A stretch of 64,000 nt of DNA from Lysobacteraceae bacterium (GTDB lineage Bacteria > Pseudomonadota > Gammaproteobacteria > Nevskiales > Nevskiaceae). The position numbers and the translations under genes were made by a program. The notes beneath the pieces are model-generated. The model had not been told where the DNA came from. It worked only from the letters and a program-made list of their open reading frames with translations, and did not search any database. This document shows, piece after piece, positions 43,585 through 61,937 of this stretch. The stretch covers positions 62,001 through 126,000 of the forward strand of contig PNMW01000007.1 of assembly GCA_013823855.1 (NCBI GenBank), written 5' to 3'. How positions within the stretch are numbered: position 1 is the stretch's first letter; each line of letters opens with the position of its first letter.

Positions 43585-43592
43585 GTCGAAAG

Positions 43593-45017
43593 TCAGAACT
43601 GGAAGTACAGGAACGCCGAGTAACCCTGTGCCGACAGCTTCATGATCGACATCGCGAACAGCGGCAGCAGCAGGCCGACGACCAGCAGTGCCTTGGTCCG
43701 TTCCGAAAGTGGGGGACGCTTGGGGCCGTAGGCGATGACGCCTTCGGCGAGCACGAACAGGGCAGCGAACACCAGCATCGCGATCTGCAGTCCGGAGATC
43801 ATCGTCAGCATCGGATCGCTGAGGCCGCCGACGTTCTTCAGCAGGAACATGGGCTGGTACATCCGCCAGGCCTCGCCGATGCTGGCGGCGCGAAACACCG
43901 TCCAGCTGATGATCACCAGCACGAAGGTGATCAGCCAGCGGGTCGCCCGGAAGGTCTTTGGCGCGCCGCTGATGCCGAGCACGCGCTCGATGAAGATCAT
44001 GAAGCCCTGCATCGCGCCCCAGGCCAGGAAGGTCCAGTTGGCACCGTGCCAGACGCCACCGAGGAAGAACGTGATGATCACGTTGCGGTGCGTCGCTGCA
44101 TTGCCGTTGCGATTGCCGCCCAGCGGTATGTACAGGTAGTCGCGCAGCCAGCTCGACAGGCTGATGTGCCAGCGCCGCCAGAACTCGGTGATGCTCTGCG
44201 AGATGTACGGGGCGTTGAAGTTCTCCATGAACCGGAAGCCGATCATCAGGCCGAGGCCGATCGCCATGTCGCTGTAGCCGGAAAAGTCGAAGTACAGCTG
44301 CACTGTGTAGGCGATGGCGCCGAGCCAGGCATCGGCGGTCGACGGATTGGTCAGCGAGAAGCAGTAGTCCGCCAGCGGTGCAACCGTGTCGGCGACGATC
44401 ACCTTCTTGACGAAGCCCTGCATGAAGCGCGTCGCCCCGAGGCCGAACAGCCGGGCCGAGTGATCGCGCTGCTCGAACTGGTCGGCGAGGTCCTTGTAGC
44501 GGAAGATCGGGCCGGCAATCAGATGAGGGAACAGCGACACGAACGTCGCGAAGTCCACCGGATGCTTGGTGGCCTCGGCGTCACCCCGGTAGACATCGAC
44601 GATGTAGCTGATCGATTCGAAGATGTAGAACGAGATGCCGATCGGCAGCAGCACGCTGGCCATCACGAACGGTTCGAAACCGAGGCCGGTCATCAGTTCG
44701 TTGAAGCTCGCGACGCCGAAATTGGCGTACTTGAAGTAGCCGAGCACGCCGAGGTTGACGATCACGCCGAGCTTCATCCAGCGGCGTGCCAGCGGCTGCC
44801 CGACGCCCGCGTTGCCGATCGCCGCGCCGACCAGGTAATTGAACACGGTGACAGCCGCGAACAGACCGAGGAAGTCGATCCGCCACCAGCCATAGAAGAA
44901 ATAGCTGCCGGCAAGAATCACGTAGTTGCGGATCCGTCGCTTGTTCGGTGTCAGGTAGTAAACCGACAGGAACAAGGGCAGGAACAGCAACAGGAACACG
45001 TTCGATGAAAAAACCAT
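43593..45017 (-). CDS. algI: Alginate O-acetyltransferase AlgI, copy a (MBOAT)
   Basis: A 474-residue MBOAT membrane protein that brings acetyl groups across the inner membrane for alginate O-acetylation. Canonical blocks: MVFSSNVFLLLFLPLFL, YFDFSGYSDMAIGLGLM, FWRRWHISLSSWLRDYLYIPLGGNR in pieces and the essential His in GGVWHGANW. This copy is the more canonical of the two tandem paralogues (YLYIPLGGNR versus YVFYSLGGSAR). It is the last gene of the operon, 51 bp after copy b. Confidence 0.94.
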   Translation of the reverse strand: MVFSSNVFLLLFLPLFLSVYYLTPNKRRIRNYVILAGSYFFYGWWRIDFLGLFAAVTVFNYLVGAAIGNAGVGQPLARRWMKLGVIVNLGVLGYFKYANFGVASFNELMTGLGFEPFVMASVLLPIGISFYIFESISYIVDVYRGDAEATKHPVDFATFVSLFPHLIAGPIFRYKDLADQFEQRDHSARLFGLGATRFMQGFVKKVIVADTVAPLADYCFSLTNPSTADAWLGAIAYTVQLYFDFSGYSDMAIGLGLMIGFRFMENFNAPYISQSITEFWRRWHISLSSWLRDYLYIPLGGNRNGNAATHRNVIITFFLGGVWHGANWTFLAWGAMQGFMIFIERVLGISGAPKTFRATRWLITFVLVIISWTVFRAASIGEAWRMYQPMFLLKNVGGLSDPMLTMISGLQIAMLVFAALFVLAEGVIAYGPKRPPLSERTKALLVVGLLLPLFAMSIMKLSAQGYSAFLYFQF

Positions 45018-45068
45018 GGGGCTTTACCAGGGATTCGATTATTTGCCGTGAGGGACTGGGTATGCCCG

Positions 45069-46499
45069 TCAAAACTGGAAGTACAGAAACGCTGAGTAGC
45101 CTTGCGCCGACAGTTTGGTGATCGCCAGGAAGAACAGCGGCGTCAGCAGCAGCACCGACGACGCGACCCGTACCCGCTCGCTGCCGAGCTGAATCTTCGG
45201 GCCGTACTCTCGCAGGCCTTCGAAGACCACCAGGCCATAGGCCAGGATCAGGGTCGCGATCTGCATCGTGCTGATCGCTCCCGAGAACGGCTCGCTGATC
45301 CAGCCGACGTTCTGGATGAACAGCATCGACTTGTACATCTGGATCGCGCTCGACACATTGTCGGAGCGGAACAACACCATGCTCATCGCGACCGCGACGA
45401 TGAACGTCAATGCCCAGTGGTGCACCTTGAAGCGGGTCGGATTGCCGGTCACGCCAAGGACCCGCTCGAACAGCAACAAGCCTCCCTGCAGCGCGCCCCA
45501 GAGCACGAACGTCCAGTTCGCACCGTGCCAGATGCCGCCGATCAGGAAGGTCATGAAGGTCATGTAGTGCAGGCGCATCCGCGTCTTGCGCGCCGATCCT
45601 CCCAGCGAATAGAACACGTAGTCGCGCAGCCAGTTGCTGAGGCTGATGTGCCAGCGGCGCCAGAACTCGGTGACGCTCTGGCTGATGAACGGCTTGTTGA
45701 AGTTCTCGACGAACTTGAAGCCCATCATCAGGCCAAGGCCGATCGCCATGTCGCTGTATCCGGAGAAGTCGAAATACAGCTGCACGCCGTATGCCATCAC
45801 GCCGATCCAGACATCGGCCGTGCTCGGATCAGGCAGCGCAAAGCAGTAGTTCACCATCGGCGCGAGCGTGTCGGCAATGACGACTTTCTTGACGAAACCC
45901 TGCATGAACCGGACCGCGCCGCGGCCGAACATGTCCATCGTGTGGACACGGTGCTCGAACTGAGACGCCAGCTCCTTGTAGCGGAACAACGGGCCGACGA
46001 TCAGGTGCGGGAACATCGTGATGAAGGTCGCGAAGTCGGCGAGGTGCTTGGTCGGCTTCACGCTGCCGCGATAGACGTCGATGATGTAGCTGATCGACTC
46101 GAACACGTAGAACGAGATGCCGATCGGCAGCAGCAGTTCGGACAGGGTGAACGGGTCGAAGCCGGTCACCTTGATGATCGAGTTGAAGCTGTCGATGCCG
46201 AAATCGCGATACTTGAAATAGCCCAGTACCGCGAGGTCGACGGTCACCCCGAAGCGCATCCACTTTCGCGCCTTGGCCGTTCGGGCGCCCGCTTCGCCGA
46301 TCTGCCGGCCGATCACGAAGTTGAACAGCGTGACGAAGATCAGAAGCGACAGGAAGTCGAGCCGCCACCAGCCGTAGAACACGTAGCTGGCCCCGAGGAC
46401 GACGTAGTTCCGCAGGCGGCGGGTGTTCGGCGTCAGGTAGTACAGCGACAGGAATATCGGCAGGAACAGCAGCAGGAACGCGTTCGAGGAAAAGACCAC
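45069..46499 (-). CDS. algI: Alginate O-acetyltransferase AlgI, copy b (MBOAT)
   Basis: A 476-residue MBOAT protein, highly similar along its length to copy a, so a tandem duplicate. The catalytic His context GGIWHGANWTF and RRWHISLSNWLRDY are kept, but the loop after RDY reads VFYSLGGSARK and the cytoplasmic loop sequence differs. A GTG start is used, 4 bp after the algJ stop. It may pair with AlgJ or AlgX while copy a serves the other, or the two may differ in substrate. That division of labour is inference. Confidence 0.92.
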   Translation of the reverse strand: MVFSSNAFLLLFLPIFLSLYYLTPNTRRLRNYVVLGASYVFYGWWRLDFLSLLIFVTLFNFVIGRQIGEAGARTAKARKWMRFGVTVDLAVLGYFKYRDFGIDSFNSIIKVTGFDPFTLSELLLPIGISFYVFESISYIIDVYRGSVKPTKHLADFATFITMFPHLIVGPLFRYKELASQFEHRVHTMDMFGRGAVRFMQGFVKKVVIADTLAPMVNYCFALPDPSTADVWIGVMAYGVQLYFDFSGYSDMAIGLGLMMGFKFVENFNKPFISQSVTEFWRRWHISLSNWLRDYVFYSLGGSARKTRMRLHYMTFMTFLIGGIWHGANWTFVLWGALQGGLLLFERVLGVTGNPTRFKVHHWALTFIVAVAMSMVLFRSDNVSSAIQMYKSMLFIQNVGWISEPFSGAISTMQIATLILAYGLVVFEGLREYGPKIQLGSERVRVASSVLLLTPLFFLAITKLSAQGYSAFLYFQF

Positions 46500-46503
46500 G
46501 CGC

Positions 46504-47667
46504 TTACCTCGGCTTGATCGTCGCCAGCTTCGTGGTCACCGACTCCGGCAGCGCGATACCGGTCAACGCAGCCTTGCCGAGCAGCGAGCGCTCGGGAATT
46601 TCCCAGATCACCACGCGCGGCTTGTGGCCAGCGTAGTCGGCACCGGTCAGGTACTGCGCCATCGGCGGGAACGGACCGATGCCTTCCTTCGAGTAATCGG
46701 CGAGCGCTTCGTTCAGGAACTCGCTCAGATATCCCTGGAAGTTCCAGCGATCGTTCGCGGTGTAGCTGGTGCCGACGACCGCCACTTCCGGGATCGAGTC
46801 GTCGCCCAGCAAGGCGTCGGCACTGGCTTCCTTCTCGACGGCCTTGGTGACGACGGGAACATAGGTATCGGCCGTCGGCATCAGGCTCGGAAACATCGGC
46901 TCGAGCGGCAGGAACGACAGGAGATCACCCTCGAAACTGGTTTCGGGCTGCTCGGCGGTCACGAATGCCTTGGCGTCGCTGGCTTTGGTGACCAGCCCCT
47001 TGGCATTCATCGCGTTGATGACGGCCTGCGCGGCGAGGCGGGCGCCAGTTGGTGTCCAGTGCGTGTCAGTATGGAAGAACAGCGGCTTTTCGGCTTTGGC
47101 TGCCGTGAAAACCTCGTCGAGCGTGACCAAGGTCGTCTGTTCGCCGATCGCGGACCGGACACGCGCCATGACCTGGCCATGGGCAGTCGCCTGCCGGTGA
47201 TCGCCGACATGCTCCGGGTAGATGTGTGCTTTTTCCGGAACGATGACCACAACCAACGGAATCTTCGCCTCGGCAAGCGTGGCCTGCGTCCAACGGATCA
47301 GTTCGAGATTCTGTTCGAGGATCTGCTCCCAGCGGGGAAGCACATGGAATTCCTCGTTGGTGTAGAGCCAGCCATCTTTGCCAAGCAACACGCCGATCTT
47401 GCCCTCGCGGAACAAGACCAGCTGCAGTGCGGTCCAGAAATTGACGCTGGCAGTGCGGAGCGGGAACTCCTTGTCAAAGTGTTGTTCGAAGTTGCGAACC
47501 AGCGCTCCGTCGAGCACCGTCACCGGTGGCGCGCGGTAAGTCGCCACAGCCTTGACGCTTGATAGCGACAAGGCGCCGACGACCAGCACGAACACGATGC
47601 CGACGATTGCATAACCGCCCTTCGCCCCTGTTCCGGCCGCGGCGCCGGGTGCGTTCTTGTCCGTCAT
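46504..47667 (-). CDS. algJ: Alginate O-acetyltransferase AlgJ
   Basis: A 387-residue protein with one N-terminal membrane anchor and a periplasmic SGNH-like domain. Catalytic-type residues are D201-T-H203 in FFHTDTHWTPTGA and S301 in VVGTSYTAND. AlgJ relays acetyl groups from AlgI toward AlgX. It is separated from the TPR gene by 59 bp and from algI copy b by 4 bp. Confidence 0.92.
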   Translation of the reverse strand: MTDKNAPGAAAGTGAKGGYAIVGIVFVLVVGALSLSSVKAVATYRAPPVTVLDGALVRNFEQHFDKEFPLRTASVNFWTALQLVLFREGKIGVLLGKDGWLYTNEEFHVLPRWEQILEQNLELIRWTQATLAEAKIPLVVVIVPEKAHIYPEHVGDHRQATAHGQVMARVRSAIGEQTTLVTLDEVFTAAKAEKPLFFHTDTHWTPTGARLAAQAVINAMNAKGLVTKASDAKAFVTAEQPETSFEGDLLSFLPLEPMFPSLMPTADTYVPVVTKAVEKEASADALLGDDSIPEVAVVGTSYTANDRWNFQGYLSEFLNEALADYSKEGIGPFPPMAQYLTGADYAGHKPRVVIWEIPERSLLGKAALTGIALPESVTTKLATIKPR

Positions 47668-47726
47668 TCAATTCGATCCTGTTGACATTCGACTGCTTGT
47701 AAATGCGGCTGTAGCTCGTGATGCGG

Positions 47727-48605
47727 TCAGCCCGGCGTCTGCTCGATGCCCATCACTGCGAGCCTGCGCGTGATTTCGAAGGTGATGGCCTGCTGATCCG
47801 GCAGCTTTTTCAGTACCTGCAATTGCTTCTGGTACATCGCAGCCGCTTCGCTCCGGTTATGCAGCTGCTCGTACATCCACCCCATCTGCTGGTAGGCGTA
47901 GCTCAGCTGCTGGTTGTCGACCGGTTCCAGCCGAGCCAGCGTCACGAGGCGTCGATAGACTTCCAGCGCGTCGCTGTAGCGGTCGCGACGCTCCAGTGCC
48001 TCGCCGTAGCGAGACCACACCGCCATTGCAACCGGCCGTGCCGATTTCGGCGCCAGTTCCAGACGGCCCACGGCCTCCTGGAACTCGGTGATTGCGGCCG
48101 GCAACTGGTCGAGCGAGGTCAGAACCGCCGCGTGGCGGCTGAGCAGGTCCGCTTCTTCAGTCGCCTGGTCTCGACTGGCCTTGGTTTTGCGCAGTCGTGC
48201 CAGTGCATCGCGGAGCAGGATCTCGGCATGGAAGGGCTTGCCGCGCGACACCTGGACGTCAGCCTGACGAATGCGCAGGGCGCGAACCTTCTGACCGTCA
48301 CCGAGACGGTCGGCCGCGTCAGCCGCAAGAGAGTAAAGATCGTAGGCGGCAGGATAGTTGCCAAGCGCGACCTTGTTATTGGCTTCCGTGATCAGGTTCC
48401 GAACATACAAAGGCGATTCGCCGACAAGCACGCGAATGTTCTCGGTCGATTCCTTGCAGATCTTGGCTGCGTCGAGCAGGTCTGCAGCACGCGCGATCTC
48501 GCCCTCGCAGAGCGCGACATAGCGCAGCGCGTCGGTCTCGTTGCCAGCAAGCACCGGTCGGGTGAGCAAGCTGACAATGCCGAGTACTGCGAGAATTTTG
48601 TTCAT
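47727..48605 (-). CDS. TPR-repeat periplasmic protein in the alginate operon
   Basis: A 292-residue protein with a signal peptide (cleavage near VLAG) followed by helical repeats typical of TPR proteins (YPAAYDLYSLAADAADRLGD, YSDALEVYRRLVTLARL, YQQMGWMYEQLHNRSEAAAMY). It is not AlgK, which is separately present. Its ATG overlaps the algL stop (ATGA), so its product level is tied to AlgL. A scaffold role in the periplasmic alginate complex is inference; I know no equivalent gene at this place in the Pseudomonas or Azotobacter operons. Confidence 0.8.
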   Translation of the reverse strand: MNKILAVLGIVSLLTRPVLAGNETDALRYVALCEGEIARAADLLDAAKICKESTENIRVLVGESPLYVRNLITEANNKVALGNYPAAYDLYSLAADAADRLGDGQKVRALRIRQADVQVSRGKPFHAEILLRDALARLRKTKASRDQATEEADLLSRHAAVLTSLDQLPAAITEFQEAVGRLELAPKSARPVAMAVWSRYGEALERRDRYSDALEVYRRLVTLARLEPVDNQQLSYAYQQMGWMYEQLHNRSEAAAMYQKQLQVLKKLPDQQAITFEITRRLAVMGIEQTPG

Positions 48606-49744
48606 GGTGTCGTTTGCCCGTCGAAGATCTGGGTCAGGTTGCCGCCCAGTCGCGTGCTGTTCAAAGGACGGACGCTGGCCAGTTGCCGTTGCAGCGCTTC
48701 CGGGCATTGGGCGACATGGCAGTACGGTTCCATCCAGGCGTAATTGGTGGCGGCGCTCGCGAAGGTCTCCTGACGTGCACCAGCACGCCGGGCAAGAACT
48801 TCCGGATCGCGCAGCGCGGCGAAAGTCAGGTCAGCGAGCCGCGACAGTGGTGCCGTTGGCGTTACGTCAATCGGGTAGCCGTTCGCCGCAGCGAAGGCTG
48901 CGACCATTGCCAGCGGCCCGAGGGCATAAACGTGGTACTCCAAGGCCCGAGACTTCCGATTCAGCTCGTTTGGCAGCACGCCTTCGCCGCTGACCTGGGA
49001 TTCGAAGACACGGTATAGCCGCAGCCCGTGCTCGAACAGCGATCTATCGTTCAGCGCCGTGCCGGTGGCAACCAATGCCCAAGCCGACCAGTAATAGTGG
49101 TTGTTGATCTTGTTCAGCGGATCGTCGGCGGGCCACTCCGCGACCACGCGATCGCCAAGCTTCTTCAGCCACGCATCGATATGCCTTTCCTGGTCGCGAA
49201 AAGCCGCGAGCGGCGATGCCGGCGACAGCTTCAGCCGCAAGTAGGCCGCGCTGATACTGGCGAGCACCCATTTGCGAACCGCCCGACCGGTGTGGTTGGG
49301 GGCTGGCCCCAGCAAGGCGTCAGCTATCGCCCAGTTGTTCAGCACATCGACAATGCAGGCGACATCGTCGACGGCACCGTTCTGCAGGTATCGCCCAACG
49401 ATTTTCACCGATGCCGATTCGAGTGCTGACAGGTCGGCGACTGCAGCCTTGTATCGCCTGTCGGCATCGTCGTTGAGAGTGTCGCGCGACTTGCCGGACC
49501 CTTCGTACTTGCTCGGAAAATCGAGCGCGCTGGTGTAGGGACGCAACGATGAGTCGCAGCTGCCGCCGGCCCGCTTGTTGCCGACAGGCGCCATTGCGAA
49601 CCGTCCGGGTGCCTGCAAGCGGGCGGTCTGCGCGTTGTCCAGCGACGGCGGTGCGGATTCGATCGGCCGCTGATCGGATCGACAGGCAGTGGCCGCAACG
49701 AGCGCAATCGCGAACCCAGTGTAGATCAGGCGCCTGTGCTTCAT
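48602..49744 (-). CDS. algL: Alginate lyase AlgL (polysaccharide lyase family 5)
   Basis: A 380-residue periplasmic lyase that degrades stray alginate. The signal peptide ends in a lipobox-like AATAC (Cys21), so it may be lipid-anchored, unlike the soluble Pseudomonas enzyme. Catalytic region residues are present: K79 in FPSKYEGS, N215-H216 in NNHYYWSAW, R266 and Y270 in SRALEYHVYAL. It is 4 bp after algX. Confidence 0.93.
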   Translation of the reverse strand: MKHRRLIYTGFAIALVAATACRSDQRPIESAPPSLDNAQTARLQAPGRFAMAPVGNKRAGGSCDSSLRPYTSALDFPSKYEGSGKSRDTLNDDADRRYKAAVADLSALESASVKIVGRYLQNGAVDDVACIVDVLNNWAIADALLGPAPNHTGRAVRKWVLASISAAYLRLKLSPASPLAAFRDQERHIDAWLKKLGDRVVAEWPADDPLNKINNHYYWSAWALVATGTALNDRSLFEHGLRLYRVFESQVSGEGVLPNELNRKSRALEYHVYALGPLAMVAAFAAANGYPIDVTPTAPLSRLADLTFAALRDPEVLARRAGARQETFASAATNYAWMEPYCHVAQCPEALQRQLASVRPLNSTRLGGNLTQIFDGQTTP

Positions 49745-49748
49745 GGCT

Positions 49749-51149
49749 TCACGAGCGTTTGCACATGGTGCCGGTGACGGTGGTCTTGTCCGACGTCTCG
49801 GTCACACTCTTCACACGGACCGACACGATCGGCTCGATCTCGGTGTCTGGAAGATAGCTGGTCTCGAACACGAACCGGCCATTCATCTTGGTGTAGACGT
49901 TGTATTCACTGTTGATCGTCTGCACCTTGCCGTTGCCGTACCAGATTTCCGCACTGATGGAACGAATATTGGAATCAGAGAACTGCAGTTCCAGCCAGAC
50001 ATCCTTCGCCGGTACCGCTTTGAAGGACTTGCCACCGTTGACCAGTACTTCTGCGTACTGCGCGCCCGATTTCAGATTGGCCTTGCCGCTCAGGAGCGGC
50101 TCTTTGCCAGTGCAGCCGTTGTTGACCAGCGGCAGCAGGCGCCGCATTACCGCGGTGTCGGTTCGATGCAGCTGCTGGTAGGGGAACTCCCAGATCAGCA
50201 CCTTCGGCGGCGACTTCTGGAACAGGTCCGACGCGAGGAACTGGCTCAGCGAACCATCGAAGCCACCACCGGGGAACGCGGCCTGCAGCACGTCAGCCTG
50301 CAGTGCCCGGCGCAAGAAGCCGTAGAAGTGGTAGTTCGGTGTTGCGGCAAAGCTGGTGCCGATCAGCGCTGCCTGCGGCGCTTCCGCGTCTCCGAACAGA
50401 TCGTCGGATGCCGGTGCGGTAGTCTGATACGCCGGGTTGAACTCCATTGGATACTTCAGGCCGCATAGATTGTTCACGACAAACGATAGCGTGCCGCGCG
50501 CACCGGAGACGCCAACCTGCTTGGTCTCGTATGCCACCGTCGGCAGCTCGAAGCCCGACGACTTCACCTGCGCGGCAATCACTTCGGCGGCCTGGTGAGC
50601 TCCGGACGTGCTCCAGTGACCATCACGCTTGAAGAAGTATGGTTCTCCGCTATGCCGGCTGAACACCGAGGCATCGACCACGATGAAGCCAAGCCCACGA
50701 AGCTTGACGACCAATTCGCTATAGCGTCTTTGAAGCAGATCGATGTCAAAATTCTTCAGATCTTCGGCATCGAGCTTGTTCGCCTCGACGAGGCCGCGCG
50801 GCGGCTGCGGAAACATCACCACCTGGGTGCCGCGCGCCTTCAGCGAATCTGCCAGGCGGCGGAGCTGTTGCCAGATCTCCTCGTCGCTAGCCTCGATCCA
50901 CTGCAACTCCGCTTCCGAGCGGAACAGCCAGCCGTCCTTACCTTCAACGAGAACGCGGTAGCCGCGCATGTACTCGCTGACATAGGCGTTACGGTCGTAG
51001 ACCTTCGGGCACAAGGAGCAGCAGGTTTCGGCCTGGTAAATCGGTGGCGCCGGCGTTGCGGCCTCCGCCGCGCGCACTGGTGCACTGACCACGACCGCAG
51101 CCATGGCCAGCAGTACGCCGGCGAGCACTCGGGTCCGAGGAATGATCAT
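49749..51149 (-). CDS. algX: Alginate O-acetyltransferase AlgX
   Basis: A protein of 466 residues from ATG 51149 (a TTG two codons earlier is possible). Signal peptide, then an SGNH-like catalytic domain with D176 and H178 in KRDGHWSTSGA and S266 in LIGTSFAAT, and a C-terminal carbohydrate-binding module with many strands (WLELQFSDSN, ISAEIWYGNGK). AlgX is the terminal O-acetyltransferase of the periplasmic complex. The CxxxCC-type cluster AETCCSLCP near the N-terminus matches the structural disulfide zone. Confidence 0.94.
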   Translation of the reverse strand: MIIPRTRVLAGVLLAMAAVVVSAPVRAAEAATPAPPIYQAETCCSLCPKVYDRNAYVSEYMRGYRVLVEGKDGWLFRSEAELQWIEASDEEIWQQLRRLADSLKARGTQVVMFPQPPRGLVEANKLDAEDLKNFDIDLLQRRYSELVVKLRGLGFIVVDASVFSRHSGEPYFFKRDGHWSTSGAHQAAEVIAAQVKSSGFELPTVAYETKQVGVSGARGTLSFVVNNLCGLKYPMEFNPAYQTTAPASDDLFGDAEAPQAALIGTSFAATPNYHFYGFLRRALQADVLQAAFPGGGFDGSLSQFLASDLFQKSPPKVLIWEFPYQQLHRTDTAVMRRLLPLVNNGCTGKEPLLSGKANLKSGAQYAEVLVNGGKSFKAVPAKDVWLELQFSDSNIRSISAEIWYGNGKVQTINSEYNVYTKMNGRFVFETSYLPDTEIEPIVSVRVKSVTETSDKTTVTGTMCKRS

Positions 51150-51183
51150 GATCAACCGCGCTCTGGTCCGGGTCAGGATTGGC

Positions 51184-51807: not shown

Positions 51808-51867
51808 CGTTTGCCTCGCTAGTCCTTGAAAGGGGACGGTTGGGTCTCGACCCGCGTTGTCGATCAA

Positions 51868-53517
51868 CTACTTTTTTGCCTGCAGCACCGCGACTTTTGA
51901 TTGCGCCATCAGGATGTCCAGAAACGTAATCTGCAGCGGCAGCAGCGTGCCGCCGAGTCGAAAGCCGAGCGCACGCTGAGGCGTCCGCAAATCGACGTTG
52001 TAGTACGCAACCCGGGTCGGATAATCGAGGCCGAACGGGCCAGCGCCATTGGACGTGTAGGCGCCACCGACCACGGTCATCTCGAGTCGCTTCGAGCCTG
52101 TCGCAGCGACCGTGCCGCGATTGCGGGCAGTTCGGGTGTCGACGACAGCGCCGTAGAGTCCCGTCAGGCCATTGGCCAACGAAACGTTGTCCTGAATACG
52201 CGCGCCCGTACTGTTGCGCAGCCGGATTCCGTGGTTCTGATTGCCCGACAGTACGTTGTCCCAGACCAGCACATCGGTGCTTTCCGAGACCACGATGCCG
52301 TCCGCGCCGTTCTTTGCCGAGACATTGCCGGACACCACTGCCTTCTGGCTCCGCCGGTCGAGCACGATACCTGACCGCTTGTTGCCGCTGACTTTGTTGC
52401 CAAAGATCCAGCTACCGACCACGTCATTGGCGACAAAGATCCCGTACTTGACCCGCGTGCCCGTCACTTCATTGTTCGCGAGGATCACGCCGGTCGATCG
52501 GTCGTGGATGTTGACACCGTAAATCTGGTTGTTGCGGATCTTGTTGGCATTGATGACCAGCTTGTCCGCCTTCCAAGCATAGACGCCATACCAGAGTCCC
52601 TCGATCGTCGATTCGGTCACTGCTGCCATCGGGCGTGGCCAGATGCGCGCCTGCAACTGAACATCGCTGTAGTGACTAAAGGTCAGACCGTAAGCCTTGG
52701 TCGCGGGATAGCCGAGATTCGCGAAGCGCATGCGGGCGGCATTGAATTGCGCGCCACCCCAGCAGACGATGAACGGGCGGAACGTCGCGGGCTCGGCCAA
52801 CTTTGCCGGCGCCGCGGCGGCTTCACTCCAGCCGATGATCGCGCTGTCGACGGCGTTGACTTGACCTTCGACGACCAGAACGGCGCCTCGTTCTGTCGAC
52901 AGGCGAAGTTCCTTCACGCTGCCGGTCAGTTCGAGCACCGCGCCATGACGCACCAGAATTGGCAGGCGGGCGATGAACACGCCGGGCTGGGTCTCGGCGA
53001 AATCCTCGGCCGGAACCGATTGGGCGAGATCCTTCAGAGTTGCCACGCCGCTATCGACATAGATGGCGCGCACGCCATTACCCTGGCGTCTCGAGAACTC
53101 GGCGAGTCCTACCGATGCATTCGACGTCAAAGGACGGAACCCCGGCTCGTTGAGGAGTGAGCCGATGACGATCTTGGCGCCTCCCGTCTTGCCGATCTTC
53201 TGTCGCACGACGGCGTAGCCGTAGCCGGTGAGCGAGGGAAGCTTCGGCGCGGCAAACGCCGGAATCTGGCTCGGCTCGGCTGCATTCAGCGTGTAGCCGT
53301 CGCGGATTTCCGCATCGGTCTGCGGGACGACTGCTGAATTCCCCTCTTCGGCGCTGTCATTGCCGAAGGACTCGTCGGTCAGCGACTTGGCCAGCAGTGC
53401 ATCATCGCTGGCGTCCTGAGCGCGCGCCGGGCCAGCGAAGGCGACCGCAACCAGCAGCAGACCAAGGCCGAGCGCGGTGCGGTAGCTGCTGTAGGAATGG
53501 CCCTTCAGAACACCCAC
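51868..53517 (-). CDS. algG: AlgG-family mannuronan C5-epimerase homologue
   Basis: A 549-residue secreted protein with a right-handed beta-helix (repeats such as SGIVLDRRSQKAVVSGN). A GTG start with GAGG seven bases upstream is used, overlapping algE by 13 bp. AlgG converts mannuronate to guluronate in the polymer and supports its transport. In my alignment from memory with P. syringae AlgG, the DPHD motif is replaced by NIHD (N336, H338, D339), and the position of catalytic Arg345 holds Asn (N364 in FVANDV). His is kept. Epimerase activity is therefore doubtful, though the structural role may remain. Confidence 0.9.
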   Translation of the reverse strand: MGVLKGHSYSSYRTALGLGLLLVAVAFAGPARAQDASDDALLAKSLTDESFGNDSAEEGNSAVVPQTDAEIRDGYTLNAAEPSQIPAFAAPKLPSLTGYGYAVVRQKIGKTGGAKIVIGSLLNEPGFRPLTSNASVGLAEFSRRQGNGVRAIYVDSGVATLKDLAQSVPAEDFAETQPGVFIARLPILVRHGAVLELTGSVKELRLSTERGAVLVVEGQVNAVDSAIIGWSEAAAAPAKLAEPATFRPFIVCWGGAQFNAARMRFANLGYPATKAYGLTFSHYSDVQLQARIWPRPMAAVTESTIEGLWYGVYAWKADKLVINANKIRNNQIYGVNIHDRSTGVILANNEVTGTRVKYGIFVANDVVGSWIFGNKVSGNKRSGIVLDRRSQKAVVSGNVSAKNGADGIVVSESTDVLVWDNVLSGNQNHGIRLRNSTGARIQDNVSLANGLTGLYGAVVDTRTARNRGTVAATGSKRLEMTVVGGAYTSNGAGPFGLDYPTRVAYYNVDLRTPQRALGFRLGGTLLPLQITFLDILMAQSKVAVLQAKK

Positions 53518-54905
53518 AACGATGCCTCGAGAATCACGCGATAGTTGATGTCCGAACCGGGCGCATAGGCTTTGCCGGGGTTGAAGATCGAGGCGCGCAG
53601 GCGGATCGCCGAACGTGGGTCCTCGCTGATGCTGTCGTCGTCTTCGTACAGGTTCTTCAACACGCCGAAAGTCGGCAGGTAGTGGCTTGCCACCACGTCG
53701 ATGCCATAGCCGATATCTGTCGACGGACCGGTAGCCGCCGAAACGTTATTGCTGAGGATGCCGACAAACCGATCATCCTTGTTGAATTTCTGGACAATCA
53801 GCGACACCTCGTCGTTCGGCAAACTGTATGAGGTATACAGCGTGGCGACGCGCAGATTACCGAGCTGCGCTCGCAGCGCTTCGTTGTAGCGATAGGTCGA
53901 GGTGGTGATGCCGGTGAACGGCGTTGCGTTGCTTTGCAGGCCGCTTTGACGATACTGGCTCTGGGTTCCGCCACCACTGTATGCATATTCAGCGCCGACC
54001 AGCAGCGGGAGCACGCCAGGGCGCCACCGCACGCCGACCGTGCTGGCCACGGCACTGGTTGACTGCCTGTCGAAGCCTGATGTGAGGCGATTTTGACCAA
54101 GCGTGTTCGATAGCGTGCTGCCGACCAGGTAGGTCGCATCCGCCCAGTACTTGATCGCGTTCGGCTTGCGTGGATTCAGATAGCCATTGCTCAAGTAGAC
54201 ACCGAGCCAGGTCAGATTGACTTCTTCAAGCTTGGTTTCGGCGTTGACGGGGCGCCCCGCTCCCGGCAGGCCGCCGACATCTCGCGCGTGGAGGCCGCGC
54301 AAGCCGATCTGATGCTCTGGCATCCAGTCGGTCGAGATGTTGCCGTAGCCGTAGACCCGCTTGCGCTGGTCCAGTGGTAGATCAATGCCATCGGACCGGT
54401 ATGCATTGAACTGGTAGAGAATGCCGGCACTCGACTGGAACTTGGTCGTGTTGAGCACCCAGTACAGTGCGTCAGCGTCACGGCCGACGTAGCTGCGTTC
54501 ATTCTCCCGGATGAACTGGTGACCGATGCGCACCGACTCGCCCGGATAGCTGGTGAATCCGCCGAAGCGCAGCCAAGCCTCGTCAAGCTTGACAAAGCTC
54601 TTGACTTCGCGCGAGAGCGTGGTTTGTCCCTCGTCGGTATCAAGCACGTCGCCGGTCGGCACGAAGGCCCGGCCACGCAGATAGAACACCCAGTTGCGGT
54701 CGAACTCGATTGAGAATCGCGGCGCCAGATTGACATACAGGATCTCGTTGCTCGACTGGTCACCCAGACCAAGATCCCTTGCGCCATCGGCCTGTCCACC
54801 TACGGACGTCCGCAGCGCGGTTCCGATCTCGATTGCGGCGCACGGAGTGCTGGCGACCGCCAGCAGGCCGACTGCGGCGATCGGCAACAGGGGCTGTCTC
54901 TTCAT
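53505..54905 (-). CDS. algE: Alginate outer-membrane export porin AlgE
   Basis: A 466-residue beta-barrel with a signal peptide (ends CAAIE) and many amphipathic strands closing in a terminal Phe (LEASLWVF). Its segments FVPTGDVLDTDEGQTTLSRE and LDEAWLRFGGF resemble AlgE, which forms the alginate exit channel. It overlaps algK by 4 bp (ATGA) and algG by 13 bp, matching the algK-E-G order of Pseudomonas. Confidence 0.93.
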   Translation of the reverse strand: MKRQPLLPIAAVGLLAVASTPCAAIEIGTALRTSVGGQADGARDLGLGDQSSNEILYVNLAPRFSIEFDRNWVFYLRGRAFVPTGDVLDTDEGQTTLSREVKSFVKLDEAWLRFGGFTSYPGESVRIGHQFIRENERSYVGRDADALYWVLNTTKFQSSAGILYQFNAYRSDGIDLPLDQRKRVYGYGNISTDWMPEHQIGLRGLHARDVGGLPGAGRPVNAETKLEEVNLTWLGVYLSNGYLNPRKPNAIKYWADATYLVGSTLSNTLGQNRLTSGFDRQSTSAVASTVGVRWRPGVLPLLVGAEYAYSGGGTQSQYRQSGLQSNATPFTGITTSTYRYNEALRAQLGNLRVATLYTSYSLPNDEVSLIVQKFNKDDRFVGILSNNVSAATGPSTDIGYGIDVVASHYLPTFGVLKNLYEDDDSISEDPRSAIRLRASIFNPGKAYAPGSDINYRVILEASLWVF

Positions 54906-56638
54906 GACGCACGTCCTTTTGTATAGATATCGGGCGGAACCGGTTGTCTCAGAACCGGCTGGAAAAGCTTTTCCGCGTCGTACAGGGTCTTCGCCTGCTC
55001 GCGCTCCTGAGGGCTCATCTCGCTGTTGATGTAGTCAAGCAAGGTGGTCTTTTCGATATCGAACATGTCGGCCGCATCGATGGTGACCGGCAACGTGGTC
55101 AGCCGCTTCAGCTTGCGGACGCGATAAAGGAGCGAGCGACCACCATCCTGAGCGCGGCGCGCGAACACGTAGGTGTTGACACGATTCGGACGAATGCCCG
55201 GTACACCACTAAACATCCGTGCAAGACCGATGTAGGCCTGCACCGATCCGGCGCGGCCCGCTCGCAAGTAGTAATCGAGAGCCGATACCGGATCTGGATT
55301 ACCGAGGATGCCGAGTTGGTAGACACGGCCCAGAGACATCTCGGCTCGGGTCTTGGTGTCGATGAAGGTCAGGCACTTCTTGTAGAGTTCGACCGCCTCG
55401 TACGGCTTTCGGGTGCTGCGCTGGCCGTTGAACAGCAGGTTGGCGAGCGCCTGCGTGGCAGCTGGATCGCCGGTTTCAACGACCGGCCGCAGCGTCGCCT
55501 CCAGGTCGAGTTCCGGCAGCAGGAACGGATAACGGACCGCAACGATGGCCGCTTCAGCGCGGAAGCCGCCATCCTTGGCCAGCATCCAGCGCAGGATCTT
55601 GTCGGCCAGTTCGACGATCTGGGTGGCGCTTGCCTGCGTCGCCGCTGCGGCGCCTCCTGGCGTTTCCGAGACCACCTCAGTGGTCAGCGGTGCCGATACA
55701 AGCACTTCCTTGGCTTCGTCGTCCTCGACATCCTGAATCAGCCCCGATTGCCGCTCCTTGGCGAGGTCGTCGTCGTCATCGGTCATCTCGTCGACCATGG
55801 CGGACGCGAGGCGGCCAGCCAATGAGCCGTAGTCGACGGCTTCTCGATACAGGCGGGCCGAATCCGGGCGGGGGGCGCTGCTGTCGCCGGCGCCAGCCTG
55901 GAACACGGCAAGCGCATCATCGACCAGCTTGTTCAATCGGTCCCGTTCGCCGCGATACCGGTAGAAGTGCGCAAGATCAATGTAGCAGGCGGGATCGATC
56001 GACAGCAGTTTCGCGCAGTTCGTTTCAAGTGCCGCGGCATAGCCGTCGCGCGCAATGTTCTGCCGATACCAGATCAACGCTTGGATCTGGACTTCAGGCA
56101 GATCGGACCTCAGGGCGCGGGCGGCGATGCGGTCGCCGACACCGTCAACGTCCAGATCCGGAAACTGGATCAGAAGTTTCAAACGGACGCTGTCGGCCTC
56201 GGGGTTGCCGCGACGATCCGCATTGCGGATCAACGCATTGATTTCCGGCAGCAACTGTCGGTCGGCGCGGTTGATCAGCAGGGTGGCAAGAGAAAGTCCC
56301 GCCTCCGGAATCGAGTTCTTTGCCTGGCGATACCACTTTTCGGCATCGTCGAGACTGGCGATCGTTCCGCGATCCTGATAGAGGCCGGCTAGTTGCATCA
56401 TCGCCTCCGGATACCCCTGCTCCGCCAGAGGCTGAAGATCCTTCAGTGCCGCGTCAGGATTACCGGATAGCCGCGCCTGCTTGCCGCGCTCGAGATCGGG
56501 CAGACCCTGCGCCTCGTCGATCAGGATACCTTCGCCACCCTTGGTGAGAACCGGGATCCCCGTCTTGACGTCAACGGCAGAGCAGCCCGCACCGAATGCA
56601 AGCAAGACCGAAACGCCGGCAGTCGCGACGAAACGCAT
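54902..56638 (-). CDS. algK: Alginate secretion lipoprotein AlgK (Sel1/TPR-like)
   Basis: A 578-residue lipoprotein (lipobox FGAGC, Cys19), scaffold between the synthase and AlgE. It has Sel1-like repeats (DAEKWYRQAKN, PEAMMQLAGLYQDRG, VSALDYYLRAGRAGSVQAYIG). It is about 100 residues longer than Pseudomonas AlgK, partly from an acidic, then Ala-rich, insertion at about 283-340 (EMTDDDDDLAKE, EDDEAKEV) between repeat blocks. The start at 56638 gives a proper signal peptide and leaves 7 bp after alg44. Confidence 0.92.
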   Translation of the reverse strand: MRFVATAGVSVLLAFGAGCSAVDVKTGIPVLTKGGEGILIDEAQGLPDLERGKQARLSGNPDAALKDLQPLAEQGYPEAMMQLAGLYQDRGTIASLDDAEKWYRQAKNSIPEAGLSLATLLINRADRQLLPEINALIRNADRRGNPEADSVRLKLLIQFPDLDVDGVGDRIAARALRSDLPEVQIQALIWYRQNIARDGYAAALETNCAKLLSIDPACYIDLAHFYRYRGERDRLNKLVDDALAVFQAGAGDSSAPRPDSARLYREAVDYGSLAGRLASAMVDEMTDDDDDLAKERQSGLIQDVEDDEAKEVLVSAPLTTEVVSETPGGAAAATQASATQIVELADKILRWMLAKDGGFRAEAAIVAVRYPFLLPELDLEATLRPVVETGDPAATQALANLLFNGQRSTRKPYEAVELYKKCLTFIDTKTRAEMSLGRVYQLGILGNPDPVSALDYYLRAGRAGSVQAYIGLARMFSGVPGIRPNRVNTYVFARRAQDGGRSLLYRVRKLKRLTTLPVTIDAADMFDIEKTTLLDYINSEMSPQEREQAKTLYDAEKLFQPVLRQPVPPDIYTKGRAS

Positions 56639-56645
56639 CAGATCA

Positions 56646-57821
56646 TCACCGGAAGAACTGATGCAGCGGATCCACGAAGATCTCGACCGGCTGATCGATA
56701 CGCGAGGTCTCCAGTTCAACATCAGGCGTGATCACGACAATGATGTCGGTGATCGCGGCACTGGTGTCGAGGCCGTTCAGATCGTTGAGACCGTTGCTGT
56801 CGATCGTCGGCGCCGGCAGCACACGGAGGTTGGTGACCTTGCCGGTCAGGGTTTCCGGAGATCCGTTGACCCTTAGCACGACTTCATGGCCAATCGGGAG
56901 GCGCTTCATCTGGTCGTAGTGGAAGCGGGCCAGAATGTATGGCCTGGTGCCTTCGGGAACCAGTTCCATGACCGCCTGATTGCGCAGCACGTACTGACCG
57001 CCAACTGCGTGCGCCTTCTGGACAATGCAATCGCAGGGGCTGGCGATCGAGCCGCGCAGCTGTTCGCCGATCAGCTCCGTCAGTTGCTGTGCCGACAGCT
57101 TGAACGAGCCCGACACGCCTTCGACCACCTGCAGCAGTGCGGTCTCGAACTGGCCGACAGCCTGTCCCTTCTTGATCGTGCTGCCTTCTTTGGCCAGCGG
57201 GAAGAACGTGCCGTCGCGCGGCATGTTGATCGTGAACGTCGTCGCTGCAACCTTGGCCGCAGTGGCATGAGTCACGAAGACAAGGTCATAGAGTCGGATG
57301 GCCGCGTAGCTGAACGCGACGAGGCCCACTGCAAGCGCGACGGTGGTACCGATCACCGCGCGCAACTTGCCGCCGCCACTGAGGCCGCCGCCGGCGCTGC
57401 GGGCCCGGACGAAATTCTCGCGTGACAACGTGGTCAGCATCTCTCCGGTGCTGACCAGTTCGCCGCCTAGAAACGAGGTGATGATCTGCCGGAGAGCGGA
57501 CACTTCCTTGATGCCAAGTTCCTGGAAGAAGCAGCCAACGCGTCCGGTCTGCGCATCGATCGTGCGCACCTCGAAGGTCACGGGGATCGTGAAACCGACA
57601 GAGTCGACATTGAGCACGACGTGCCCGACGAGTACGGCACCAACCTTGAAGGTGGCTTGACCGGGATCGAAGCTGAAGCCGCCGGCCGAGATGTCGTGGA
57701 GCGTGAACTGTTTGCGGACTCCATCGGCGGTGAACTGGATCGTCGCCGGCAGCTTGACTCTGACGAACTGGCGTTGCGCTTCGGACTCGTGAACGATCCG
57801 GGAGGGGCTTTGTTGAGCCAT
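56646..57821 (-). CDS. alg44: Alginate co-polymerase Alg44, c-di-GMP receptor
   Basis: A 391-residue inner-membrane protein. The N-terminal PilZ domain has an intact c-di-GMP site: R17xxxR21 in RQFVR and D43xSxxG in DISAGG. A transmembrane helix follows (VALAVGLVAFSYAAIRLYDL), then a periplasmic HlyD/MFP-like hairpin domain. Binding of c-di-GMP is required for alginate polymerisation in Pseudomonas; conservation suggests the same control here. The start is 57821, since upstream sequence is non-conserved. Confidence 0.94.
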   Translation of the reverse strand: MAQQSPSRIVHESEAQRQFVRVKLPATIQFTADGVRKQFTLHDISAGGFSFDPGQATFKVGAVLVGHVVLNVDSVGFTIPVTFEVRTIDAQTGRVGCFFQELGIKEVSALRQIITSFLGGELVSTGEMLTTLSRENFVRARSAGGGLSGGGKLRAVIGTTVALAVGLVAFSYAAIRLYDLVFVTHATAAKVAATTFTINMPRDGTFFPLAKEGSTIKKGQAVGQFETALLQVVEGVSGSFKLSAQQLTELIGEQLRGSIASPCDCIVQKAHAVGGQYVLRNQAVMELVPEGTRPYILARFHYDQMKRLPIGHEVVLRVNGSPETLTGKVTNLRVLPAPTIDSNGLNDLNGLDTSAAITDIIVVITPDVELETSRIDQPVEIFVDPLHQFFR

Positions 57822-57856
57822 GCAAGTGTTTCCGTGACGAGGAGGAGGAGCCGCAA

Positions 57857-59395
57857 TCAACCGAACGGCGATTTGAAGGTGACGATGGTCATCACGACGG
57901 CTGCAAAGACACTGCAGGCCGAGAACAGCATGATCCGCGATGACAGGGTGTTGAAGCGTGCGTGGAACGGGTCGAGGTGCTTGGTCAGCGTGGTCTTTTG
58001 CCGGGTCCACGACTGGCGATCCGGGAAGAAAAACACGATGATTTTGATAACGGAGCCTAGGATCTGGTTGTAATACATCAGCGGCGGATACATCGGCCCC
58101 ACCCTATGACCGGCAACCATCAGCATCACGCACATCAGGCAGCGGGTGATTGCGATCCAGACCAGGAATGCGATCAGATAGTTGAAGTTGTAGTGAATGC
58201 TGGCCAGCAAGGATGCCAACAGGCCCAGTAGGCCGGTCCACATCTGGACGCGCTGATCCTGAAGCACGTAGTAGGTGAACCAGCCCAGTCGGCTCGGCCC
58301 CAACTCTCGGGCGCGTCCGTTCTGGCGCAACGAATTGCCGTACCAGCGAAACATCAAAGTGCGGCTGCTCTTCCAGAGACTCGGGTTGGGCGGATGCTCA
58401 ATCGTCTGAATCGCGGCATCCGGCAGGTAGAAGGTGCGCCAGCCATGCTTGACCACGCTATACCACGAGGACTTGTCATCACCCGTCAGGAACTTCACGC
58501 GGCCGAGGCGCCAATGCAGGATCGAGTCATTCTCGACGTCCGAGATGAACGAGTGCTGAGTGACGATATTGGCGCGAAACACCGACATACGACCGGTCAG
58601 CGTCAGCACGCGGCGGCTCAGCGCCATCGAGCACATGTTCAGGTGACGTTCTGCGAAGCGCAGCTTGTGCCACTCACTCATCAGCTTCGAGCCGAGCACG
58701 GTACAGAACTCGTTGGTGGTCATCGCGCCGACGTCAGGCAACTGATGAAACATCTGCGCGCATTTCTGCATCATGCCCGGTACCAGCACCGAGTCGCCGT
58801 CGATCACCGCCACCAGCGCGCGATGATCGGGGCAATCGCGTGCAATCGCCCGGAAACCGTGGGCGAGACCATCGCGCTTGCCGGTGCCGGGGATGCGAAC
58901 GATTTTCAGCGTGATGCGATCGGGCGGCTGGTAAGTGTCCCAGAGCGCACGCATCAGCAGTTCGTCGCCGTACTCGACGATCGACGCAACCACGGTGCTG
59001 CGGTAGCCGCAATCAATCGCCTGCTCGATGATCGCCCGATATACCCGGGCCGTCGTTTCGACGTCGATGCGAAAACTCGTCACCATGAAATAGGCGTGCG
59101 ACGGATCCGATGCCGCCCCGGCCTTGATCGCCCGCTCGCGCATCCTCGGGTACGCCACGTACAGGAACCACATCGCGCGCACGAAGTGCACAGCGCGCAA
59201 TGCATAGCGCCACAGGCCAACCACGCCGACCGCGATCAGAAAGTGCGATTGCGACGGATCAAAGGTGAAGCCAGGTAGCAGCAGCGCAAGGCCGAAGATT
59301 GCCGCCAATAGCAGCAACCATCCCGCGAGATCGCGGAACAGCGACTGCCACGACGCGTCGGACTGCAGTGCATCAGCCGGGCTGGACTGGCTCAT
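57857..59395 (-). CDS. alg8: Alginate polymerase Alg8 (family 2 glycosyltransferase)
   Basis: A 512-residue inner-membrane synthase polymerising GDP-mannuronate. Two N-terminal helices, a cytoplasmic GT2 domain with DGDSVLVPG (DxD), SDVENDSILHW and a QDQRVQMW element in place of QxxRW (the same kind of variant as in Pseudomonas Alg8), then C-terminal helices. It lies 31 bp after algD and 35 bp before alg44. Confidence 0.95.
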   Translation of the reverse strand: MSQSSPADALQSDASWQSLFRDLAGWLLLLAAIFGLALLLPGFTFDPSQSHFLIAVGVVGLWRYALRAVHFVRAMWFLYVAYPRMRERAIKAGAASDPSHAYFMVTSFRIDVETTARVYRAIIEQAIDCGYRSTVVASIVEYGDELLMRALWDTYQPPDRITLKIVRIPGTGKRDGLAHGFRAIARDCPDHRALVAVIDGDSVLVPGMMQKCAQMFHQLPDVGAMTTNEFCTVLGSKLMSEWHKLRFAERHLNMCSMALSRRVLTLTGRMSVFRANIVTQHSFISDVENDSILHWRLGRVKFLTGDDKSSWYSVVKHGWRTFYLPDAAIQTIEHPPNPSLWKSSRTLMFRWYGNSLRQNGRARELGPSRLGWFTYYVLQDQRVQMWTGLLGLLASLLASIHYNFNYLIAFLVWIAITRCLMCVMLMVAGHRVGPMYPPLMYYNQILGSVIKIIVFFFPDRQSWTRQKTTLTKHLDPFHARFNTLSSRIMLFSACSVFAAVVMTIVTFKSPFG

Positions 59396-59426
59396 GACGT
59401 ACTCGCGGAACCGGCGGTGGGCAGCC

Positions 59427-60737
59427 TTACCAGCAGATGCCCTGGGCTTCGGCGTTCGACGTCGTCTGCATGAAGCCGACGAGATCGACCAGCTTCACGC
59501 CTGGCTTCAGGTTCGCGACGACGTCGGCGAACTCCGGATCCTTGTTGCCAAGCACGATGACTTCCGCGCTGTCGACGACATCGGCCAGGCTGGAGGTCAG
59601 CAGCTTCGACACATGCGGGATCTTCGAGTCGATGTAGTCCTTGTTGGTGCCCATCACGCGAGCGTGGTCAACATTTCGATCGAACACCTTCAGCGAGTAG
59701 CCCTTGCCGATCAGCATCTCGGCGAGGTCCACCAGCGGGCTCTCGCGCAGGTCGTCGGTGCCCGACTTGAACGCCAGACCGAGCAGCGCGATGTTGCGCT
59801 TGCCGAAGCCGGCGACCAGGTTGAACGCGCGCTCGACCTGGGTCACGTTGCTGCGCATGATCGACGCCAGCATCGGGTTGTCCGATTCGACCTGGGTCGA
59901 GCGATAGTTCAGTGCGCGGAGGTCCTTGGGCAAGCACGATCCGCCGAACGCGAAGCCGGGCTTCATGTAGTACGCCGACAGGTTGAGCTTGTCGTCTTCG
60001 CAGATCAGCTTCATCACTTCACGGCCGTCGACGCCGCAGGCCTTGGCGATGTTGCCGATTTCGTTGGCGAACGTGACCTTGGTCGCGTGCCACACGTTGC
60101 AGGTGTACTTGACCATTTCCGCCACCTCGATCGGGCGACGGAACACGGCAGCCGGCAGCACCGAATAGATCGACGCCAAGCCCTCGCCGGAAGCGGCGTC
60201 GAGCTCACCGATGACCGTCATCGGCGGTTCGCGGTAGTCAGCAATCGCGGTGCTCTCGCGCAGGAATTCCGGGTTGACGGCAACGCCGAAATCGGCGCCG
60301 GCCTTCTTGCCGGACGACTGCTCGAGCGCCGGGATCACGACGTTCTTGACGGTGCCGGGCAGCACGGTGCTGCGAACGACAACCGTGTGACGAGCCGACT
60401 TGGTCTTCAGCACCGCACCGATTTCACGGCAGACCTGATCGACGTAGCGGAGGTCGAGGTCGCCATTGCGCTTGCTCGGAGTGCCGACACAGATCATCGT
60501 CAGCTCGGAGCCGAGGATCGCTTCCTCGGTGTCCGTGGTGGCGCGCAGCTTGCCGGCCGCGACGCCCTTGGCGAGCAGCTCTCCCAGGCCCGGCTCGACG
60601 ATCGGCGACTGACCGGAATTGATCAGCTTGACCTTCAGCGCGGACACATCGACACCGATCACGTCATGCCCGTAGTCCGAAAGGCACGCCGCGCAGACGG
60701 CACCGACGTAGCCCATTCCGAAAATGCTGATTTGCAC
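59427..60737 (-). CDS. algD: GDP-mannose 6-dehydrogenase AlgD
   Basis: A 436-residue enzyme oxidising GDP-mannose to GDP-mannuronate, the committed step. N-terminal NAD motif FGMGYVGAV, catalytic Cys268 in FAFGGSCLPKDL at exactly the Pseudomonas position, plus K210 and N252. A GTG start with AGGGAG six bases upstream is used. First gene of the operon, preceded by a long non-coding region. Confidence 0.96.
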   Translation of the reverse strand: MQISIFGMGYVGAVCAACLSDYGHDVIGVDVSALKVKLINSGQSPIVEPGLGELLAKGVAAGKLRATTDTEEAILGSELTMICVGTPSKRNGDLDLRYVDQVCREIGAVLKTKSARHTVVVRSTVLPGTVKNVVIPALEQSSGKKAGADFGVAVNPEFLRESTAIADYREPPMTVIGELDAASGEGLASIYSVLPAAVFRRPIEVAEMVKYTCNVWHATKVTFANEIGNIAKACGVDGREVMKLICEDDKLNLSAYYMKPGFAFGGSCLPKDLRALNYRSTQVESDNPMLASIMRSNVTQVERAFNLVAGFGKRNIALLGLAFKSGTDDLRESPLVDLAEMLIGKGYSLKVFDRNVDHARVMGTNKDYIDSKIPHVSKLLTSSLADVVDSAEVIVLGNKDPEFADVVANLKPGVKLVDLVGFMQTTSNAEAQGICW

Positions 60738-60761
60738 TGTTGACTCCCTATTGGTCCGGAT

Positions 60762-61933: not shown

Positions 61934-61937
61934 CGAC

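Follow-up and report, generated by a model that had tools for sequence, protein, structure and literature searches.

The stretch of DNA analysed here (64,000 nucleotides, G000:C3:62001-126000, hereafter the window; G000 denotes its genome) carries a complete alginate operon whose AlgG protein, a homologue of mannuronan C5-epimerase, has an altered active site. From sequence comparison, we consider it rather likely that this synthase-dependent operon has an AlgG that would act as a scaffold with little or no epimerase activity, and that its genes from algK to the gene of a tetratricopeptide repeat (TPR) protein would have been exchanged. AlgG catalysis was most likely lost or changed, and the composition that we predict for the polymer derives from that. 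The source organism is a Nevskia-type metagenome-assembled genome (MAG), not a pseudomonad; the assembly is MAG-like (3.87 Mb, 87 contigs, 88% completeness). The sister species G005 was used for pairwise comparison with the window; G015, G002 and G008 are further Nevskia-type genomes.

The active site of AlgG is altered

AlgG was aligned in 90 rows, four of which are the same places as others, leaving 86 distinct rows. The motif DPHD was found in 88 of the 90 rows; the window protein reads NIHD and one Vibrio hepatarius copy APQN. Conservation was counted over the 86 distinct rows at columns 336 (D, 84 rows), 337 (P, 85), 358 (H, 85), 363 (S, 85) and 364 (R, 84). The window departs at each of them, and only the window AlgG and one Vibrio copy depart at both 336 and 364. 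Because 4nk8, titled "D317A mutant", reads A exactly where 4nk6 has the first D of DPHD, opposite N336 of the window, N336 corresponds to Asp317. Counting on from Asp317, H338 is His319, Y333 is Tyr314 and N364 is residue 345, which we take to be the arginine that neutralises the carboxylate. The substitutions at the site are therefore N for Asp317, P337I, H358Y, S363A and N for arginine 345. According to passages of a 2015 review (PMC4444821), an arginine of AlgG neutralises the carboxylate, the histidine of DPHD takes the proton and Tyr314 holds a water.

The fold itself was retained. The model of the window AlgG (predicted local distance difference test, pLDDT, 87.1) matched AlgG structures with a TM-score of 0.94-0.96: like Pseudomonas syringae AlgG (4nk6, 0.94 by target length) and its D317A mutant (4nk8, 0.96), it is a beta-helix that keeps His319 and Tyr314. 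Unlike either of them, it has asparagine at both the Asp317 and Arg345 positions. The window AlgG thus has the beta-helix expected of an active epimerase but neither the DPHD motif nor the arginine at 345. The codons concerned (N336 AAC, I337 ATC, N364 AAT) differ beyond what single-base errors explain. Moreover, the 16 further genomes of the order in which AlgG occurs all carry DPHD (25 fragments, with repeats among them).

A search of the window's genome at E 0.1 found one AlgG only. We also rejected a second beta-helix with a DPH motif; the other beta-helix gene (L180) was examined over part of its length. A link between the second algI of the operon and loss of epimerisation was ruled out, since G005, G015 and G002 have both algI genes and keep DPHD.

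The Vibrio hepatarius locus (L104, match 10001-11464) is an atypical cluster with matches in the order D-8-44-K-G-X-L (alg genes being named by their last characters). The AlgG-like protein encoded in line reads APQN at the motif and N in the Arg345 column, and a second, DPHD-bearing epimerase-like gene lies on the opposite strand.

Change is concentrated in AlgG and around its catalytic centre

At near-invariant AlgG columns, the window departs at 18 of 98, compared with 7 of 98 in G005, 7 of 99 in G015, 8 of 99 in G002 and 6 of 96 in G008. The three coils that surround the catalytic centre contain 17 near-invariant columns, of which 8 are changed, versus 10 of the 81 columns outside them (Fisher one-sided p 0.0026). 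Two similarly divergent proteins, L058 and L088, have 16 and 14 departures, but only 1 and 2 of these in the catalytic coils. AlgG also stood out when lineage-specific changes were counted at columns conserved in the outgroup: 33 in the window versus 9 in G005 (p 0.00027 uncorrected; 0.0027 corrected for ten genes). The same count gave 11 versus 7 for algL, 6 versus 6 for algX, 3 versus 6 for algK, 1 versus 3 for algE, 1 versus 1 for algD and 0 versus 1 for algJ, with no informative changes in either genome for alg8, alg44 and algF. Significant excess over the sister species was therefore confined to AlgG among the ten operon genes tested. Terminal branches for the window and G005 measured 0.94 and 0.27 in AlgG, and 0.31 and 0.23 in K+E+F+X+L.

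The operon might still make an ordinary acetylated alginate, if the window AlgG were an epimerase in which other residues, for example K316, replaced Arg345 and Asp317. The retained His and Tyr, the full-length intact frame and the conserved fold would all fit such an enzyme, as would K316 itself, which stands one coil before the histidine; the active-looking L058 also has K there, together with DPHD and R345. However, Asp317 and Arg345 are both kept in 84 of the 86 rows, the neighbours in the active site changed together (P337I, H358Y, S363A) and the gain in rate is restricted to AlgG. We therefore hold an active epimerase to be unlikely.

Alternatively, the whole locus could be decaying and the polymer no longer made, which the acceleration of AlgG and the divergence of the middle genes could suggest. 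This is very improbable: 13 of 13 frames are intact and tightly spaced, the nine other genes tested show no excess change, and the aligned catalytic-type residues of AlgX, AlgJ, AlgL and AlgI, in the roles that we presume for them, are kept.

Several points nevertheless speak against an AlgG without catalysis. The proton-abstracting His319 and Tyr314 persist as H338 and Y333, and K316 could stand in for the arginine. With 88% of the genome recovered, a second epimerase could lie in the unseen 12%. The limits of the catalytic coils were drawn from the strands of the model after the changes had been seen, and the power to see acceleration in most other genes was low because informative changes were few (0 to 18).

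The genes from algK to the TPR gene form a probable mosaic block

Protein identity between the window and G005 varied sharply along the operon. It was 96, 94 and 90% for algD, alg8 and alg44, then 56, 66, 52, 75, 59, 48 and 40% from algK to the TPR gene in gene order, and 76, 91 and 95% for algJ and the first and second algI. Eleven control proteins from the bamA region were 80-98% identical, BamA and Skp reaching 98% (BamA was named by a family model, the other control names are our own reading). At the DNA level, identity stepped from 0.82 to 0.66 at the alg44/algK junction and from 0.51 to 0.74 at the TPR/algJ junction.

The trees differed accordingly. With D+8+44, the window and G005 were joined (99/98) and a G005+G015+G002 group was rejected (approximately unbiased test, p-AU 0.0035), whereas with K+E+F+X+L, G005, G015 and G002 were joined (100/100) and the window+G005 pair was rejected (p-AU 2.3e-5). 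Third-position GC of the middle genes was 0.72-0.77 in the window, 0.55-0.61 in G005 and 0.41-0.57 in G015/G002, against 0.74-0.92 in control genes. Divergence at four-fold sites between the window and G005 reached 0.60-0.73 in the middle genes; the flanking genes gave 0.30-0.51 and the controls 0.14-0.42. All together, these comparisons suggest that the block was probably exchanged between Nevskia-type lineages. The route was probably homologous recombination, with the conserved algD-8-44 and algJ-I-I ends as sites of pairing, leaving gene order unchanged.

Could the block instead be a chimaera of two Nevskia species assembled into one MAG? The 87 contigs of the MAG-like assembly and the abrupt steps in identity would be compatible with this, but translational overlaps are intact wherever a junction was checked (algE/algG, 13 bases in G000, G005, G015 and G002), and three further genomes, including one reported as 100% complete in about 10 contigs, likewise have middle genes of atypical third-position GC. 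A chimaera is thus most improbable.

It is also conceivable, though unlikely, that no exchange took place and that alginate proteins of the periplasm and outer membrane are just quick to evolve in this genus. Indeed, relatives of type B are also lower in K and E identity than in D, 8 and I, and even the pair G015 and G002 shows high synonymous divergence along most of the operon. Fast evolution is, however, at odds with the identity of the control envelope proteins BamA and Skp (98% between G000 and G005, versus 40-75% for algK-TPR) and with a difference in topology, not in branch length alone (p-AU 2.3e-5).

The case for exchange is weakened in other respects. The tree hypotheses were chosen after the distances had been seen; with AlgG alone, G000+G005 was not rejected (p-AU 0.056), and with AlgJ the alternative grouping was not rejected either (p-AU 0.066). 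Divergence between G015 and G002 is near saturation over most of the operon (0.50-0.84, some values on few sites, versus 0.10-0.40 in seven controls). As synonymous divergence is this high even in that pair, part of the contrast between the block and its flanks comes from rapid drift in weakly biased genes.

In the G005, G015 and G002 operons (L022, L023, L024), third-position GC of the alginate genes goes down to 0.41, compared with 0.74-0.92 in controls of the same genomes.

Content of the operon

The 13 genes are intact reading frames on the minus strand, running from 60737 down to 43593 (Table 1). A sequence-only reading of the window had described thirteen same-direction genes with mostly tiny gaps or overlaps and proposed a complete alginate operon, allowing that the organism might not be a pseudomonad; the intact frames, the family-model and structure matches and the Nevskia-type genome bear out both. 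That reading had remarked on neither the AlgG substitutions nor the mosaic block. Intergenic distances ranged from -13 to +60 bases once starts were corrected: the longest open reading frames begin too far upstream for alg44, algK, algF, algX and the TPR gene, for which 57821, 56638, 51807, 51149 and 48605 fit better.

Table 1. Features of the alginate operon and its surroundings (window coordinates).
Feature	Position	Strand	Remarks
Candidate sigma-70-like promoter	61006..61033	-	about 270 bases upstream of algD; consensus match only, 1 found vs 0.3 expected
algD, GDP-mannose 6-dehydrogenase	59427..60737	-	436 aa, GTG start; 665 bits to 1mfz over full length
alg8, GT2 polymerase	57857..59395	-	512 aa; PF13641
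alg44, PilZ co-polymerase	56646..57821	-	391 aa from likely start; 1e-23 to 4rt0
algK, TPR/Sel1 lipoprotein	54902..56638	-	578 aa from likely start; NF038194, Sel1
algE, outer-membrane porin	53505..54905	-	466 aa; 2.8e-63 to 4xnk
algG, mannuronan epimerase homologue	51868..53517	-	549 aa, GTG start; altered active site (N336, I337, Y358, A363, N364)
algF	51184..51807	-	207 aa from likely start; PF11182
algX, acetyltransferase with carbohydrate-binding module	49749..51149	-	466 aa; PF16822, PF16824; 1.4e-80 to 7ula
algL, PL5-type alginate lyase	48602..49744	-	380 aa; PF05426; 1.1e-82 to 4ozv
Secreted-looking TPR protein	47727..48605	-	292 aa; PF13424; overlaps algL stop by 4 bases
algJ	46504..47667	-	387 aa; PF16822; 5e-62 to 4o8v
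algI copy 1, MBOAT	45069..46499	-	476 aa; PF03062
algI copy 2, MBOAT	43593..45017	-	474 aa; PF03062; 60% identity to copy 1
Block algK to TPR, probable exchanged segment	47727..56638	-	tree and identity profile differ from flanking genes

The set comprises AlgD, Alg8 with the PilZ protein Alg44, export by AlgK/AlgE and the modification genes AlgG/X/L/I/J/F, as expected of a synthase-dependent alginate operon. The AlgD protein is of the GDP-mannose-specific type (665 bits to 1mfz versus 233 to UDP-glucose dehydrogenase), which together with AlgE, AlgG and AlgL rules out an acetylated cellulose locus. The RxxxR motif of Alg44 aligns with 4rt0. Alg8 is 55-94% identical to the 12 related Alg8 rows and had no match in the PDB; AlgE had none in Pfam. 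Against the NCBI equivalog models, AlgK scored 129 bits (NF038194) and AlgG 416 bits (NF038177), both below the cut-off of 700; AlgG also matched 4nk6 at 1.2e-98, and its gene overlaps algE by 13 bases. The TPR protein (model pLDDT 86.1) is not AlgK-like, generic TPR folds being the only ones among the 50 structure matches listed. The algI pair arose by duplication inside the Nevskia group (28-row tree), with the RRWH and WHGA motifs in 28 of 28 rows.

By eye, the N-terminus of AlgL has a lipoprotein-like signal, with a cysteine near residue 21, that would tether the lyase to the membrane. No structured RNA element matched Rfam at the gathering score in 43000-62400. Near the operon (38216-39274) lies a FeeM/acetyltransferase-like gene of the N-acyl amino acid synthase type, a weak Pfam match at the cut-off.

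Gene order is a derived rearrangement within the Nevskia group

The order in the window is D-8-44-K-E-G-F-X-L-TPR-J-I-I, in agreement with the sequence-only reading, which had placed algF between algG and algX. Comparison across alg8-bearing genomes, as that reading had proposed, recovered exactly this order in four genomes read over the whole operon (the window's, G005, G015 and G002), with one variant in G008 (D-8-44-K-E-G-F-X-L-TPR-I-J-I). Another order, D-8-44-K-E-G-I-J-F-X-L, was found in G006 of the same genus and in G035, G027, G021 and G032 of the family, and, with two algG, in G038 and G045 of the same taxonomic order; the loci of G013, G010 and G048 are too short for assignment. The alg8 gene is present in 8 of the 18 genomes of the genus, the window's included.

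A 13-row Alg8 alignment was searched against a species-representative collection, and the best 80 of 470 relatives were retained, each read 10 kb either side of alg8 only. The closest named records by Alg8 among these 80 were a Lac Pavin gammaproteobacterial MAG (94%) and Nevskia sp. MAGs (70-86%). Of the 80 loci, 48 read G-X-L-I and 11 + 3 read G-I-J-F-X (with one algG or with a match to a second type of algG, respectively). G-F-X-L-TPR occurred in three, all Nevskia-type and identical to genomes already counted, and no sampled locus outside Nevskia-type genomes had the order of the window. A search for related loci with AlgG as the only query returned no relative, and a scan of 369 genomes of the class with the NF038177 profile gave matches in six, one being the window's own; two of the six matches are weak.

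Since homology to the Pseudomonas set extends to all genes and the blocks D-8-44-K-E-G and F-X-L are shared with D-8-44-K-E-G-I-J-F-X-L relatives of the same genus and family, the order of the window is a derived rearrangement within the Nevskia group, in which I and J moved to the end, the TPR gene was gained and algI was duplicated. We therefore rejected an independently evolved alginate system, and the earlier suggestion of an independent arrangement does not hold. As in Pseudomonas and Azotobacter (algD-8-44-K-E-G-X-L-I-J-F-A in the part of PMC3815931 that describes it), the 11 operon genes other than algA are present and the first six keep their order; the window differs by F-X-L-TPR-J-I-I after algG, an unlinked algA, an extra TPR gene, two algI and the altered AlgG site. 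The G-I-J-F-X-L operons of Marinobacter, Hahella, Dyella, Vibrio fluminensis and Nevskiaceae relatives share the D-8-44-K-E-G and F-X blocks, with L after X where read, but have I and J before F, whereas in the window these come after L and TPR, as J-I-I. Gene order alone is a modest finding, since rearrangement of algIJF has been published: a survey of 1733 genomes, in the sections drawn on here, distinguished alginate operon clades by moved algIJF and noted atypical operons, without naming Nevskia in its main text (PMC7112194).

Two further arrangements were seen among relatives. Tandem duplication of algG, with DPHD in both copies, occurs in L031 and L032 (G038, G045) and also in G048, in another family of the same taxonomic order. 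A second Alg8-like synthase (L036, G035:C63, 13588-14847; 36-38% identity) lies in a genome with a complete operon, with no other alg gene match on its 18 kb contig.

GDP-mannose would be supplied by unlinked genes

The window does not have the Pseudomonas-type operon, with algA inside it and the Pseudomonas order. The sequence-only reading had reported algA as missing. It is indeed absent from the cluster, but the genome does contain a bifunctional phosphomannose isomerase/GDP-mannose pyrophosphorylase (PMI/GMP) gene at G000:C5:48524-49930 (TIGR01479, 662 bits, above the cut-off). The genome search that the same reading had called for, covering algA and algC, also found a phosphomannomutase-like gene at G000:C45, cut by the contig end and named from our own reading of its sequence, not by a family model. 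A missing supply of GDP-mannose was thus ruled out by the PMI/GMP gene on another contig. Such an algA-type gene adjoins the operon in seven I-J-F-X-L or algG-doubled relatives (8 of 104 loci searched, L054 being L028) and in none of the Nevskia-type flanks examined; the Pseudomonas loci in this survey end before algA would come.

A candidate natural mannuronan producer

By homology, GDP-mannose from the unlinked genes would be oxidised by AlgD and polymerised to polymannuronate by Alg8 with the cyclic di-GMP-binding Alg44. The chain may then pass the periplasm with AlgK, AlgX, AlgG and perhaps the extra TPR protein, be O-acetylated by AlgI1/AlgI2, AlgJ, AlgF and AlgX, and leave through AlgE, with AlgL removing stray chains. 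AlgG would most likely be kept as a scaffold, its C5-epimerase activity being little or none, and the cell would export (acetylated) mannuronan that holds hardly any guluronate or none. An AlgG of this kind would make the organism a candidate natural mannuronan producer.

AlgG is required as a scaffold, and AlgG mutations that disable catalysis leave yield unaffected, as stated in parts of PMC3815931. The 2015 review reports, in the passages concerned, that all alginate-producing bacteria encode AlgG and that secreted alginate holds some guluronate, that pure mannuronan was obtained from mutants, and that an organism making mannuronan had not been identified in nature, guluronate being suggested as needed for chain flexibility (PMC4444821). 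The output predicted here, a polymer without epimerisation, resembles that of laboratory mannuronan strains with mutated AlgG, as portrayed in parts of both papers (PMC4444821, PMC3815931). Unlike those mutants, the window carries a natural change, one that extends over many sites and is fixed in its genome sequence. Among the open-licence papers listed by our searches, none reported, by title or abstract opening, an organism that makes mannuronan in nature, a naturally inactive AlgG, or Nevskia with alginate.

Nevskia forms slime stalks (PMC5047622, in part) and surface and bubble biofilms (PMC7798470, in part), and we would guess that this operon makes the slime. In its broadest form our proposal is tentative, and we would place it a little short of even confidence: AlgG of this Nevskia lineage may be a non-catalytic scaffold, the slime that these surface-film bacteria make may be acetylated polymannuronate and not mixed alginate, and lineages may trade the periplasmic/outer-membrane cassette, with the synthase and acetylation ends remaining in place. 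If true, a lineage whose AlgG is disarmed in nature would be a direct test of whether guluronate is needed for chain flexibility. The scaffold role of AlgG would be separable from catalysis, a natural source of pure mannuronan would be at hand, and the locus would offer a genetic handle on the slime of Nevskia.

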